A DNA stretch of 64,000 nucleotides, taken from assembly GCA_015852425.1 (NCBI GenBank), contig JAAAIG010000062.1, forward strand, positions 1 to 64,000. Direction: 5' to 3'. Below the pieces are notes generated by a model, which was not told the origin of the DNA, searched no databases, and worked only from the letters and a program-made list of their open reading frames with translations. Below are positions 48,849 through 58,479 of this stretch, one piece after another. This stretch comes from Gryganskiella cystojenkinii (lineage: Eukaryota > Mortierellomycota > Mortierellomycetes > Mortierellales > Mortierellaceae). Made by a program: the position numbers and the translations under genes. Numbering within the stretch: the stretch's first letter is position 1; each line of letters opens with the position of its first letter.

Positions 48849-50840
48849 TTACTCATCCTCGCCGTCGTTCTTGAACATATCAACGGCGTGTTGCACAGCA
48901 GCGACGCCACCATCGTTACTGAACCGATTTTCTCGAACAACAATAGAAGCGTGCGCGTTCATGGCCTCGATATGGATAATGTTCTTCTTCCAGTCCAATT
49001 GATTCAGGTTTCTTGAGATCTCGACCTGAACTGGCAACAAACCCAAGGGGCGAAGTTGCTTCAGGTGTGGGTAGGAGTACGATGAAGGCTCCGAGGAATC
49101 ACCGTCGAGCGTCTCGATGGTTGATTCCGTGACCGCCGTTGACTGAGGCGTCAAGGATGAAGAGTTTTGTTTTGAGTGAAGAGGGGTGGTCTCATTGATC
49201 GTCAGAGTGACCGAGGAATCGGCCTGGGTATTTTTTTGAAGGGTCGTGATGTGTGTCGTTGAGTTGTTGCTCTTGGTATCGTTTGTTTTGTTGTTGCTGG
49301 AAATATTCGCATTGAGTCTGGCGACCAGGGCTTCATCCCGCACGCGATTCAGCTCTGGGTTCTCCTCCACCATAGGTCTCGTCCTCCTCCTGGAATTATA
49401 TCCCTGAACAGAGATGGTTGAGCAGGCAAAGACGATCCAGACAGGGATCAAAAATGGTCCCAGGATACCGAAAAACGCATATCGTTTCCAAGGGATGGCC
49501 TTGAGTCGGATTGAGGTCCGTTCTGAGAAAGAGAGTGCTTCCAGCTTCTTCATTTGCTCCCGTTTCTTTCTCGAGAGCTCATCCAGCCCCTGCGGCTCGA
49601 AGGATTCGATCAAGGACGAGTATCCCGTGCTGTATTGACTAATAGATCCAATAAGAAAGGCGCATAAGAGGTGTGAATACAGGCATTATATATAGAAGGC
49701 AATTACAATACGACCAGGGCAAAGAGCCAGGCTTACATCTCAAGCGACTCCAGCTCAGTAAAAGGGTCTGCATCCGAGAAACTGGCGGTCCAGAAGGGAA
49801 CAGATCGGTCGTTGGCCACATTGCAGTAGATCGATCTGCGTTTGAATCTTGAGAGTGCGTGGACGAAGATTCCTTGAGGGTCGGACATGACTAGCAGGAC
49901 AGGCTTGCCTCCAATGTAGTTGTCTATTAATTGCATTTGTTCGCCTAAACGTATTGCCACCAAAAAAAAAAAGGGTTCAAATCAGAAAATTTGGTCAGTG
50001 TCAGGTTTGTGCGTCTTTTTTTTTTGTCTGCTTTCTCTCAAGTGACCATAGTCATTCCACACAAGCTGTAAGTTTCGCTTTTTGACATGTACCTGATCGA
50101 CTGAGCATCCTTGAGGAAAAAAAGTTGAAGAACCTGGACCAGGTCGTCTTGGCAGGTTTACGGATACCAAGATGAGGGGTCGCCATCGTGACAAAGTACA
50201 TGGGCTCGACCTTGTCAAAGAACCCTTCGAGTTCCAAGATACCCATCGCGAAGCGACCGATCAAACCTCCAAGAGAGTATCCCAAGAACGAGAACTGGGT
50301 GACCTTCTTGCTGGATTTTGTTGTCTGTGCAGTTGATGTGCCGGTGGTCGAGGCTGCTCCGGAAGATGGAAGGTTTTCGACAGAGGTGGACGGGGAGGGC
50401 GTTGCAGAAGAAGACTTTTTTGATTTTTTGGTCTTTACCTTTTGCCCCTTCATTTCCTCGATGTTGCCACCAGACTCGATAACCTTGATCACACTGTGGA
50501 TCTCCCGGACAAGTCGTTGGCCACAAATATCGACACCGTCGTATGTGAGCGCAGACTCGTTTGCCTGGGCACGGTACTATTTGAAATCAGGGTACGAGAT
50601 TATGTTCTGTGAGTTCTTGTATGACCAAGAATATGCAACTGAAAGAAACAAGGTGCAGCAGCAGCAGGACGGGTGGGGCTGTTGCTGTTGTTATTATTGA
50701 GAGTGTCTTACGACGAGGATGCGGTCACCGAGTCTTTGTTTGAATTGCTCGGCAATGAACCGGACATGGTTCACATTGCCCCAGAGTCCATGGTGGAGGA
50801 TGACGAGATGCACGCCTTCGTGAAGTGAGTCTGAGGTCAT
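48849..50840 (-). CDS. DUF676 (Rog1-type) putative lipase
   Basis: Four exons, complement(join(48849..49638,49737..49944,50093..50576,50712..50840)), 536 residues. The N-terminus has the oxyanion segment VILHHGLWGN; the nucleophile is Ser144 in LGYSLGGLIGRF, and TMATPHLGI follows as in Rog1/FAM135-like lipases. A Lys/Ser-rich low-complexity insert (about residues 88-134) splits the domain before the nucleophile. A hydrophobic segment (YAFFGILGPFLIPVWIVFA) near the middle of the last exon may anchor it to a membrane, and the C-terminus is Ser/Thr-rich. Probably hydrolyses acylglycerols or phospholipids; the substrate is unknown. It is the third lipase-like gene of the window. Confidence 0.83.
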
Positions 50841-51619: not shown

Positions 51620-51623
51620 GAAG

Positions 51624-51695
51624 CTCTTTGTCCGGGAATTGAACCCGGGTCTTCCGCGTGACAGGCGGAGATACTCACCACTATACTAACAAAGA
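51624..51695 (-). tRNA. tRNA-Asp, anticodon GTC
   Basis: 72 bases without intron. Acceptor stem TCTTTGT pairs with ACAAAGA; discriminator G73, as expected for Asp. D arm AGTATAGTGG (A box); anticodon arm CCGCC TGTCACG CGG with GTC; T arm CCGGGTTCAATTCCCGG (B box). The plus strand shows its reverse complement. It stands alone between the DUF676 lipase and the viral-polymerase-like gene. Confidence 0.95.
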
Positions 51696-53305: not shown

Positions 53306-55336
53306 CTACTCCTCATACTGCCATCGATCCTCGACTTTACGAGCCTGACAGACCAATCGAATCCACTGTTCATATCCCAGTCGTCTCGGTTTCTTGGCCT
53401 TCTTTCCACGTCCGAGTCTCAGGTAATACCGGGTATGATGTTGATCCATGCAGGTAGGCCATTCCGCAGGTCGCTCGAATGACGGACCCAATTCCAAGAA
53501 ATCAAGGTATTTGTCCAACCACTCACGTGTGGTTTTGTTCCCAGCAGCGTTCAAATAGACCCCCAACGCACGTAACCAGGCATGCTCTCTCGTGAGGTTG
53601 CCATGTTTCGGGAACAGGAGCGACAGATAACTCTCCTGAAAGGGTCGGTACGGGATCACGATTTTAGGCGCGTAGTTACCTCGCCCCCATCGCTGGTGTC
53701 GAAAATACATTCCCAGGAAGTGGATCCCCTTGAATTGTTCCGTTCCTGGTTCACTCGAATCCATGAGTCGATCCGTTGTAAACGACTTCATGCCGGACCA
53801 ATCTACGTTGAACGCTTCCTTGACCACGTGCGAGAGTGCAGATCGACCCAGGAATGACCAAGACGATGGAAGGGCCATGACCATGTCGTCCCCAAGAACC
53901 TCGATCTCACATTTCTTCAGGACATCCTCGACACCGGACGCACCATTATAGATCTGGGCTTGATCGATCAGGGCCGTGTAGCCGAGTAAGAGCGTAATTA
54001 TGCTCTGAACCAAGGTGTTGAAGCTGTTGCCACTGGTGGTGCCGCATCGTTTCTGCATCCGGATCCCGTCATCCCTGCAGATGACCACGTCCACCAGAGA
54101 CTCATAAACGAAGGCCCAAAGAGAATCGTACTTGGGGTTCATGCCATCGCGGTACTGTCGTCTCAGGATCCGAATCGCGGCTGAGACAAGCCATCCATCG
54201 ATCGCGGCATCAAACTTCTTGGCATCAAAACAGTGGTAGATTTGATGGCGGGTCATCTTGTTGATAAAATCCTCACAACCACCATGGTACCATCCCTGAC
54301 CGATATGGATCGGCCATTTCTTGTCCAGGTACGCACGCGTCAAAGGTTTCTCCAGGGCGGCCAGCATGAGATAATCACGATGACTAAGCATCAGAATCAA
54401 TCGACCCATCGAGATCGAGGACCCATCTGTATTCGCAAGTCCATATTCGTTTCTCTTGCGCTCGATTAGCTTGCCTTTGCCACCGAGTCGAGCGTCATGC
54501 GGTTGAACCCTCTGACCGGTCATCAACTTGTTCCAAGCTTCCCGAGCATCCTTCAACGCAACCGGATGAGCATCCCTTCGTTTGCCGAGGTTCTGACGCG
54601 CATATTCCATGCCCGAAAATTTAGTACCATCGAATCGCACGTTTCCTAGGTCCTTGATCTTGGGCATCGGTAATTTTTCGGGCAAATCCAACAGGCCTGC
54701 GACATGGTCACATGCCTTCTCGAACGAAGACTGGTATGGGATGGGCAATTCGCGGGAGCGTCGATTGAACAATCTGAGATGATTCATCTGTACGGGCGTA
54801 CAGGTGTCCACGTATTCGAAACAATCCAGGTCCAGGCTAGCGGGTAAAGGTGGGGGGAGCATATAAGAAAATTTCATGATGTAAGGGTCCCGAGAGAGAT
54901 AGTCGATCGTCGAGGCCAAAGGTTTAAAGGCGGGTTTGCGGGGAAGGAACGAAAAATGAATAAACTCCTGTCGGAGCATTTTTTCCGTCGCCAGAACCTC
55001 CCGAGGAGCTAACTGTCGAGCCAAGGCAATCGGGAGAGAACGAGCCGGTCGCGCATCTTGCTTTTGTCGTCCTTGGGGTGGTCCTCCACCTTGGATTGGG
55101 ACCTGAACCCGTCGGCCTTGGACTCCTTGAGTGTTTGATGAAAGAGGAAAACGTGGAGCTGGGACCGCATAAGAGCGTCTCGCACGTTGAAGGGCCTCAG
55201 CCTCACGAGCCCTCATCTTGAGTACATGAAGGCTGAGATTGGGGGCCCTGTTGTTTGGGAAAGAGCGATCGCCATCGTAGTTGATGGCGTCATTGTTACC
55301 GCTGAGAGAGTTGCTAAAGTGCGTAGTGGATAACAT
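53306..55336 (-). CDS. endogenised RNA-virus-type RNA-dependent RNA polymerase
   Basis: 676 codons, no introns, no internal stop. A basic, Gln/Pro-rich N-terminus of about 100 residues precedes the polymerase. Motifs in the right order and spacing: a template-contact region (GRLILMLSHRD), motif A FDAKKFDAAIDGW (about residue 370), motif B TTSGNSFNTLVQS (about 430-443), motif C LGDDMVMAL (GDD about 482-484), and then HFLGMYFR, a position where partitivirus-like enzymes have FLG. This is a viral replicase, not a cellular (QDE-1-type, DxDGD) RdRp. The closest family is probably partitivirus/amalgavirus-like (Durnavirales), inferred only from motifs. An intact frame points to recent capture or to use by the host. 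Neighbours are ordinary fungal genes, so contamination is unlikely. Confidence 0.85.
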   Translation of the reverse strand: MLSTTHFSNSLSGNNDAINYDGDRSFPNNRAPNLSLHVLKMRAREAEALQRARRSYAVPAPRFPLSSNTQGVQGRRVQVPIQGGGPPQGRQKQDARPARSLPIALARQLAPREVLATEKMLRQEFIHFSFLPRKPAFKPLASTIDYLSRDPYIMKFSYMLPPPLPASLDLDCFEYVDTCTPVQMNHLRLFNRRSRELPIPYQSSFEKACDHVAGLLDLPEKLPMPKIKDLGNVRFDGTKFSGMEYARQNLGKRRDAHPVALKDAREAWNKLMTGQRVQPHDARLGGKGKLIERKRNEYGLANTDGSSISMGRLILMLSHRDYLMLAALEKPLTRAYLDKKWPIHIGQGWYHGGCEDFINKMTRHQIYHCFDAKKFDAAIDGWLVSAAIRILRRQYRDGMNPKYDSLWAFVYESLVDVVICRDDGIRMQKRCGTTSGNSFNTLVQSIITLLLGYTALIDQAQIYNGASGVEDVLKKCEIEVLGDDMVMALPSSWSFLGRSALSHVVKEAFNVDWSGMKSFTTDRLMDSSEPGTEQFKGIHFLGMYFRHQRWGRGNYAPKIVIPYRPFQESYLSLLFPKHGNLTREHAWLRALGVYLNAAGNKTTREWLDKYLDFLELGPSFERPAEWPTCMDQHHTRYYLRLGRGKKAKKPRRLGYEQWIRLVCQARKVEDRWQYEE

Positions 55337-56463: not shown

Positions 56464-58479
56464 TCAGTACAGGTCCTCATCTCTAGAGCCTCTGGTGGAC
56501 CGACTACCGTAGATGTCTGTCGAGGGGAATGATCCCGGCAAGCTGGGTGATCCGGATGCGGACGATCCTGTACTATCTTGCGGCGGTTGGCGAAGAGTCT
56601 CTTCCGACTCGGGCAGCAGCGATGACCGGCTACAAAAACGGACCCGGCGTGTAAAATTGCATATCCATCAATTAGTTTCAGGGGTCTTACGGTCTGCGGA
56701 ACTTATGCCTCTTGCCATATCCTGCAACAGAGTCCTTACCATGTCGGACAAGTGGCACTCGTTTTCAGCCAGGGTTTGATACAATCCTCATGAAAGATGT
56801 GTTTGCACTTCAACTGGAGACAAGCATCCTGCTCCACAAATTCGTCCTTACAGACACTGCACTCGGTCTTCGCATCTGTTAAATTTCAAAGGGAAGTTTA
56901 ACCACGTTGCTGTTAGATAATCGCCTAAGAAAAATGCCGACGAAAGCCAACATGTATAGAAGCAGTATTTTACCAAGCTCTTCCCGCGTCATCTTGTGTT
57001 GAGGTATACTGTCGATGATTTCCTCCGAGGCACCCACAGGCCCACTGCGACTGTAGAACATAAAACGAGTAAAGAGATAAGATCAGATGAGTTATCACGA
57101 TACGCATAAAGTCCAAATTATAAAGGAATTCCCATCATATGTAGAGAATGCGATACGAACCTCTGCATCTCCATCATCCGCGTGATCACATCGTCCAGTC
57201 CTCCTTGACTGAAGACATAGTCGCCCGGATTTCCTGGAAGGTTGAACAATCCTCCTCCGAAACCGGCACCCGATCCGCCAGCCGACAGTCGCAAATCCAT
57301 GCCCAGTTGAGCTAGTAGACTAAAGACATACCGTGAAAACAAAAAAAAAAGGTATTTAGAATCGCTAGCGGCGATTTTTTTCCCTTGGCCTTTAGCATTC
57401 CGACAGGTGACTGAAGTCAGGCGCTAATTATTAGTTTTACATCCCCTGTTAACTATACTTACGTTGCTAGGGACATGGGTGCACTCTGCATCTGTTCGTG
57501 TTCATGTTGGTGGTGATGTTGGTGGTCATCATCCGGGTCTTCCATATCAACGTCTTGGTCCTCATTCACGTTCGAATTTTGAGCCGATCGTGATCCAGAC
57601 CTGGTTGTGCTTGGGCGAGGGCCGAGCTGAAAGGTGCTGATACCGAAGGGGTTGCCACCCGAGGGGAACTCTCCAGGCTGTTGTTGCAACTGTTGTTGAG
57701 TGGATCGTTGTTCTTGAGTCTGTTGTTGATCCGTTCGAGTCCGAAGGCGAGCCGGATTGGATATGGCTTGAAAGAGTTGAAACAGGTCCTCGAGGCTCAC
57801 GGGTTCATGGGCCTCGTGTTCGTGTCCGTCCTCATCCTCGGGTTCGGGCTCAACAAACGTTCTCGGGTCGTTGTCCTCTTCAATCTGAGAAGAGTGAGGG
57901 ATTACCAAGAACAAGATGTACCAGTGCAAATTGAGAGGGTCATCATCGATGATTAATCATCGCGTTAGAGAGGATCATATTGACGTCTTTTTTAATATTC
58001 ACACAAACACACACCCACACACACACATCCATGCATATCTGCGCCGCCTCTTTGCTATAAAACACATACACACCGAAACACAACTTAAAACGAACAGCAA
58101 GGTGATTACCTTTTCGACAAACTCGCTGTGACAGTGTGGACACATGGGATCAGGCACCAACATTGGGGTCATCTCTGCAGCGCACTACATAATGAAAACA
58201 ATAAAAAGCAAAGTCAGTTTAATGCCCAGCCATGCAAAAAATGACACGTTCATGATGCGGAGTTGGGTGTGTCTCGAAACGTAATGACAAAGAAAGAATG
58301 GCGGTGGGGTGGTGGCATCCTGTGTGGCAGTATATCCCCCCCTCCCCCTGAACAGTGAGAATGTCAATCATCTCGATGTAGTCCTTTTCGCAATGAAGCC
58401 TTGCCTGATGACACCAGTACTGATGGCGTGAAGGGGTTGTGGTAGTGTTGGCCGTAGTAGCCGGGGCAGGTGTGGCCAT
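56464..58479 (-). CDS. RING-H2 E3 ubiquitin ligase (RNF126/RNF115-like)
   Basis: Seven exons, complement(join(56464..56629,56740..56875,56974..57050,57161..57319,57463..57884,58110..58184,58405..58479)), 369 residues. An N-terminal zinc ribbon (YWCHQC ... MCPHCHSEFVEK, cysteines at 23, 26, 40, 43) precedes an acidic, Gln/His-rich low-complexity linker, a short conserved segment (IIDSIPQHKMT) and the RING-H2 domain (ECSVCKDEF, CKHIFHEDCIKPWL, CPTC; from about residue 275). Such ligases clear mislocalised hydrophobic proteins in the cytosol. The first intron has a GC donor (CAG|GCAAGG) with acceptor TGTAG; only this joins WCHQ to C and completes the zinc ribbon. Start is MATPAP at 58479. Confidence 0.88.

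Follow-up and report, generated by a model that had tools for sequence, protein, structure and literature searches.

We analysed a stretch of 64,000 nucleotides from Gryganskiella cystojenkinii (Mortierellaceae; contig JAAAIG010000062.1, positions 1 to 64,000), referred to below as the window, which carries on its minus strand, at 53306-55336, an intact gene for an RNA-dependent RNA polymerase (RdRp) of viral type. With a probability of roughly 0.8, we regard this gene as a domesticated viral polymerase. Its open reading frame (ORF) starts with ATG and comprises 676 codons (702 from stop to stop), with neither a stop nor an intron across the homologous region. Against Pfam, the protein matched RdRP_1 (PF00680) with E = 2.4e-14 and 53.4 bits (cut-off 23.9), and otherwise only gpW, below threshold. 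The Pfam listing held no match to PF05183, the cellular RdRP of RNA interference (RNAi), and comparison with PDB sequences returned nothing up to E = 10. The motifs A (FDAKKFDAAID), B (SGNSFNT) and C (LGDD) are all present, in the right order and at the expected alignment columns. An intact viral-type frame of 676 codons had been predicted from the letters of the window alone, and these results confirm that 53306-55336 is a genuine viral-type RdRp gene, far beyond chance. The parts of the gene are as follows.

53306..55336, minus strand: intact viral-type RdRp gene, 676 amino acids, with the conserved polymerase at about residues 124-670 (ORF, Pfam, protein search)
54968..55336, minus strand: N-terminal extension, about residues 1-123, poorly conserved and very different in length among relatives (alignment)
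54452..54502, minus strand: conserved PHDARLGGKGKLIERKR stretch, residues 279-295, which we take to be motif F; K289 invariant in 51/51 aligned rows
54197..54229, minus strand: motif A, FDAKKFDAAID, residues 370-380; D371 and D376 invariant in 51/51 aligned rows
54011..54040, minus strand: motif B, TTSGNSFNTL, residues 433-442 (alignment)
53882..53896, minus strand: motif C, LGDDM, residues 481-485 (alignment)

Profile and protein searches of the 35.0 Mb assembly (1050 contigs) gave this single match to a viral RdRp. It should be noted that the PF00680 profile also scored above its cut-off in the control genome of Methanosarcina acetivorans. A deposited G. cystojenkinii protein, P0002 (1100 amino acids), is 100% identical over 99% of the RdRp ORF and joins it to the upstream RING gene. 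This fusion looks like a gene-model error, because the RING gene has a stop of its own, ending at 56464, and 1.1 kb separates it from the RdRp ATG.

The protein search yielded 51 matches: the protein itself, 30 proteins of Mortierellaceae type (53-64% identity; 27 of them from named Mortierellaceae isolates), one from Phycomyces (36%) and 19 others. Six of these 19 bear virus names, namely the bipartite mycoviruses of Cryphonectria, Trichoderma and Metarhizium, Botrytis cinerea mycovirus 3, Podosphaera virus A and a partial Curvularia thermal tolerance virus; they are 41-42% identical to the query, of which five cover 81-88%, the sixth being partial. A partitivirus-like or amalgavirus-like source, as originally predicted, was rejected, none of the six being so named (the trees contained no partiti- or amalgavirus).

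Two trees were built, one of 50 rows and a careful one of 27 rows with 11 clade members. In the former, the 31 Mortierellaceae-type rows, including that of the window, form one side of a single branch (Shimodaira-Hasegawa-like approximate likelihood ratio test, 100) with a stem of 1.26 changes per site, next to the bipartite mycoviruses; in the latter, the support of the clade is 100/100. The partial curvulavirus sequence, P0052, is a match of the search and stands outside the trees, and the link to Curvulaviridae rests on the search together with two papers. The window thus holds a chromosomal Mortierellaceae gene within one clade beside bipartite, Curvulavirus-like RdRps, and the protein search and phylogeny bear out the idea of a mycovirus-type polymerase gene in a fungal chromosome, between cellular genes.

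The bipartite Curvulavirus-type mycoviruses, such as Cryphonectria parasitica bipartite mycovirus 1 (P0033), have the same motif set as the window RdRp. They are, however, replicating RNA viruses, and most virus-like rows have H at positions 437 and 439 and GDDN in motif C, unlike the clade. As viruses, Curvulaviridae have an extrachromosomal RNA genome, with a second double-stranded RNA (dsRNA) segment, whereas the window gene has cellular genes on both sides of it in its contig; it is related to the viral RdRp but is not a virus. Three other related RdRps (P0044, P0045 and P0047) occur on contigs of 3.2, 13.4 and 7.5 kb, compared with about 2 kb for the named viruses, and may be additional chromosomal copies, in other hosts.

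The genes on either side of the RdRp gene in the window are the following.

56464..58479, minus strand: upstream neighbour, a multi-exon RING-finger gene (copy A), with a close relative named RNF115/126
51623..51695, minus strand: tRNA-Asp (GTC), between the RdRp and esterase genes
48849..50840, minus strand: downstream neighbour, a multi-exon gene for a DUF676 putative serine esterase (copy A)

Both protein-coding neighbours being multi-exon, the intronless frame does sit in intron-bearing surroundings, as predicted. We examined the same site in 28 named isolates, on the basis of locus tags, contig sizes or fused gene models. RING copy A (RING-A) adjoins the RdRp gene in 15 of the 28, of which 12 rest on consecutive locus tags, 2 on fused gene models and 1 on contigs of identical size, and the DUF676 gene is on the RdRp contig, one or two tags away, in 10/28. 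Taken together, 20 of the 28 isolates, from many genera, have the RdRp gene next to this same RING gene, this same DUF676 gene or both, so that a single ancestral insertion is common to the 20. Neighbour evidence is absent in the other 8. Moreover, the RdRp and RING gene trees, compared over 15 pairs, have 8 of 12 splits in common, while the mean over 5000 label shuffles was 0.25 shared splits and the maximum 4.

These data bear on an alternative left by Brown & Firth (2025, Virus Evolution; PMC12548735), who described a Durnavirales-like clade of endogenous viral elements comprising 64 Mortierellaceae sequences, with Curvularia thermal tolerance virus as the nearest classified virus and a tree close to that of the hosts, and who left open whether this reflects early insertion or host specificity. 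Our clade is very probably theirs, and the RdRp/RING agreement fits their host-like tree, to which the shared site is added here. In favour of several separate integrations, from host-specific viruses co-evolving with their hosts, related exogenous viruses do exist, the tree by itself is compatible with such a history, and 8 isolates are without neighbour evidence. Yet the flanking genes are common to 20/28 named isolates, and four residues found in all 31 clade proteins (N437, F439, L406 and K577) are rare or absent in 16 virus-like rows, so that we hold separate integrations to be very improbable. For the 20 isolates, the shared site therefore decides between early insertion and host specificity.

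The same evidence rules out the recent integration that had been put forward in the original prediction: the same flanking genes recur in many genera, and the composition is host-like, with a guanine-cytosine fraction at third codon positions of 0.58 for the RdRp ORF and of 0.57 and 0.58 for two open frames nearby. A neutral relic or an assembly artefact, i.e. a decaying copy or viral cDNA as a recent contaminant, found no support in our data and is effectively refuted by the presence of the locus in many genera. It also conflicts with the host-like third positions and with a conservation at least equal to that of the two neighbours, and we consider its likelihood close to nil. One scan of viral contigs for nucleotide relatives gave 63 pattern matches, none of them a relative.

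Losses may have followed. Brown & Firth (PMC12548735) report the gene in 53/316 isolates of one study, which makes losses, missing data or both likely. We also observed RING-A genes without a listed RdRp in E. parvispora (P0053), Modicella (P0099), NVP85 (P0102) and GBAus27b (P0106). The last three RING-A genes form one clade (99), and the lack of a listed RdRp beside them would fit a single loss, a gene left unpredicted or one hidden in a cluster.

The RING tree revealed, in addition, a paralogous segment that lacks the RdRp. Fourteen of the 15 RING genes that adjoin an RdRp fall into a 29-row group (support 89); the fifteenth, from Podila humilis, belongs to a Podila group whose connection to these 29 rows has a support of only 54. 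A second group, RING-B (26 rows, support 86), has no RdRp-adjoining member (0/26). In 14 isolates RING-B adjoins a second DUF676 gene, one or two tags apart (no gene number between them in 7, one in 7), from which it appears that the RING-DUF676 pair was duplicated and that the RdRp is tied to one copy only. The two copies are separated less cleanly in the DUF676 tree than in the RING tree, Podila being exceptional. In the window genome, RING-B lies on contig C261 (G000 C261:25653-28166). A second DUF676 gene of the copy-A subfamily was not found in this genome, in which there was only a 27% match on C330, and the 9.9 kb read around RING-B contained no tRNA; the species thus offers no clean empty site. 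Across Mortierellaceae, the apparent RING-DUF676 duplication may be the trace of an ancient doubling of a segment or of the whole genome.

We then compared protein distances for RdRp, RING and DUF676 using an identical column filter for all. In 89 of 91 species pairs the RdRp core has diverged less than RING (means 0.320 vs 0.448), and in 34 of 45 less than DUF676 (means 0.294 vs 0.355), 11 pairs showing the opposite. The window and M. alpina proteins differ at 241 of 576 core positions. Alongside 241 unselected replacements, about 15 stops would be expected (both lineages, with the codons of this ORF), and the window ORF has none. At the protein level, this is strong evidence that the gene is probably under purifying selection, and it fits the other possibility raised in the original prediction, that of a co-opted gene kept by selection.

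The N-terminal extension, on the other hand, varies freely, from 3 to 224 residues within the clade, one fused model excepted. We observed that the extensions of the clade are richer in Asn (10% vs 5% in virus-like rows), with near-repeats in that of AD094 (P0023), and they are possibly disordered.

Constraint on the polymerase was followed residue by residue in an alignment of 51 rows, of which 31 (with the window) represent the clade and 16 a virus-like set. Among the 72 columns invariant in the virus-like rows, 55 are unchanged across all 31 clade rows. Both motif A aspartates are kept in 31/31, and GDD in 30/31. The exception is P0029 of Lobosporangium transversale, from which seven residues, the catalytic GDD among them, are missing in frame; this is either a real deletion, with loss of catalysis, or an annotation error.

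Twenty-two columns set the clade apart from the virus-like set, including positions 437 and 439 and the residue after GDD. In motif B, N437 and F439 are present in 31/31 clade proteins, where virus-like rows have H in 15/16 and 12/16, respectively. In motif C, the clade has GDDM (n = 28) or GDDT (n = 3), and the virus-like rows GDDN (14/16). The clade-wide residues N437, F439, L406 and K577 were found in 1/16, 4/16, 0/16 and 0/16 virus-like rows, respectively.

The gene family itself is already published (2020 and 2025). Myers et al. (2020, mBio; PMC7482067) described an endogenous RdRp lineage of Mortierellales and Phycomycetaceae from nine sequences with conserved RdRp domains, found via mRNA transcripts, and called it a "novel fungal gene"; they thereby reported transcription of other members and, as we do, placed the family by bipartite-type mycoviruses. 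The available part of that paper mentions neither Gryganskiella nor shared flanking genes. According to these authors, the genes of Mortierellaceae and Phycomyces form a highly supported clade, and would stem from one capture predating the split between Mucorales and Mortierellales. The Phycomyces relative (P0048) is indeed on a 1.8 Mb contig, and a clade uniting it with Mortierellaceae was not rejected by the approximately unbiased test (p = 0.223). Our best tree nevertheless puts Phycomyces with the bipartite viruses, across a branch supported at 99/98, on a long branch whose place is unsure; at the 22 diagnostic columns it shows the viral state in 10, the chromosomal state in 6 and another in 6. 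A common origin is thus neither supported nor rejected by the present tree, and we regard so old a capture as rather unlikely.

New here are the shared site, the estimate of constraint, the residues next to the active site that are particular to the clade, and the paralogous segment without RdRp. The main text of Brown & Firth (PMC12548735) contains 0 occurrences of "purifying", "natural selection", "synten-", "domestic-" or "exapt-". A search confined to the papers of an open-licence library, supplementary files not included, showed no functional study of the Mortierellaceae RdRp gene and no report of a shared locus. A parallel is provided by yeast genes derived from totiviruses (Taylor & Bruenn 2009, PMC2805616), for which a comment (PMC2823675) describes partial expression and apparent purifying selection. 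Like the window RdRp, they are dsRNA-virus genes turned fungal genes. The virus family and the host lineage are reportedly other than those considered here.

Taken together, we propose that in an ancestor of most of the Mortierellaceae sampled, the RdRp gene of a bipartite, Curvulavirus-like dsRNA mycovirus was inserted as a single copy into the chromosome, between the RING and DUF676 esterase genes. From then on it would have passed vertically from host to host, maintained as one of their own genes by purifying selection; it is single-copy and intronless in the window genome. Judging from its sequence, the domesticated polymerase is probably still catalytic. Only one of the 31 proteins lacks any of the catalytic residues examined, which makes it likely that the retained function requires RNA synthesis.

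What the enzyme does can be proposed only tentatively. It may copy RNA, perhaps that of invading related viruses, into dsRNA, which would then be used by the Dicer and Argonaute proteins of the fungus; supplying these host proteins with dsRNA appears the most likely step, and is still a doubtful one. In the window genome, Piwi domains were matched on six contigs and tandem RNase III domains at two loci, while the matches to cellular RdRP (PF05183) comprise three pieces on C608 and a single piece on C719. As these co-occur with the viral-type RdRp, its dsRNA could meet an RNAi pathway. The cellular RNAi RdRPs (PF05183, QDE-1 type), whose fold is unrelated to that of viral-type RdRps, would possibly resemble it in role, that is, in making dsRNA.

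The main rival to an RNAi role is interference with related viruses, in which the protein is kept as a decoy that takes up the templates or replication complexes used by related dsRNA viruses, thereby blocking them, and need not make RNA. There is a precedent in a cell-made, virus-derived protein that gives immunity to a related virus (PMC6166632), and the residues beside motifs B and C do depart from the viral state. A decoy, however, would need neither the GDD nor both motif A aspartates, conserved as described above, and we find this explanation improbable.

Intact chromosomal genes derived from RNA viruses without reverse transcriptase are seldom encountered, and since the active-site residues of this one are preserved across many genera, the host can apparently use a viral polymerase. 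The shared locus turns an open either-or of the literature into vertical descent for the isolates tested. Much of this fungal family may even have possessed for a very long time, in an active nuclear-encoded viral RdRp, a second RNA-copying enzyme beside its RNAi polymerases, which would make dsRNA from cellular or viral RNA or replicate a polymerase-less virus segment; this we offer as a speculative possibility. Its function is directly testable by the removal of one gene in an oil-producing laboratory fungus.
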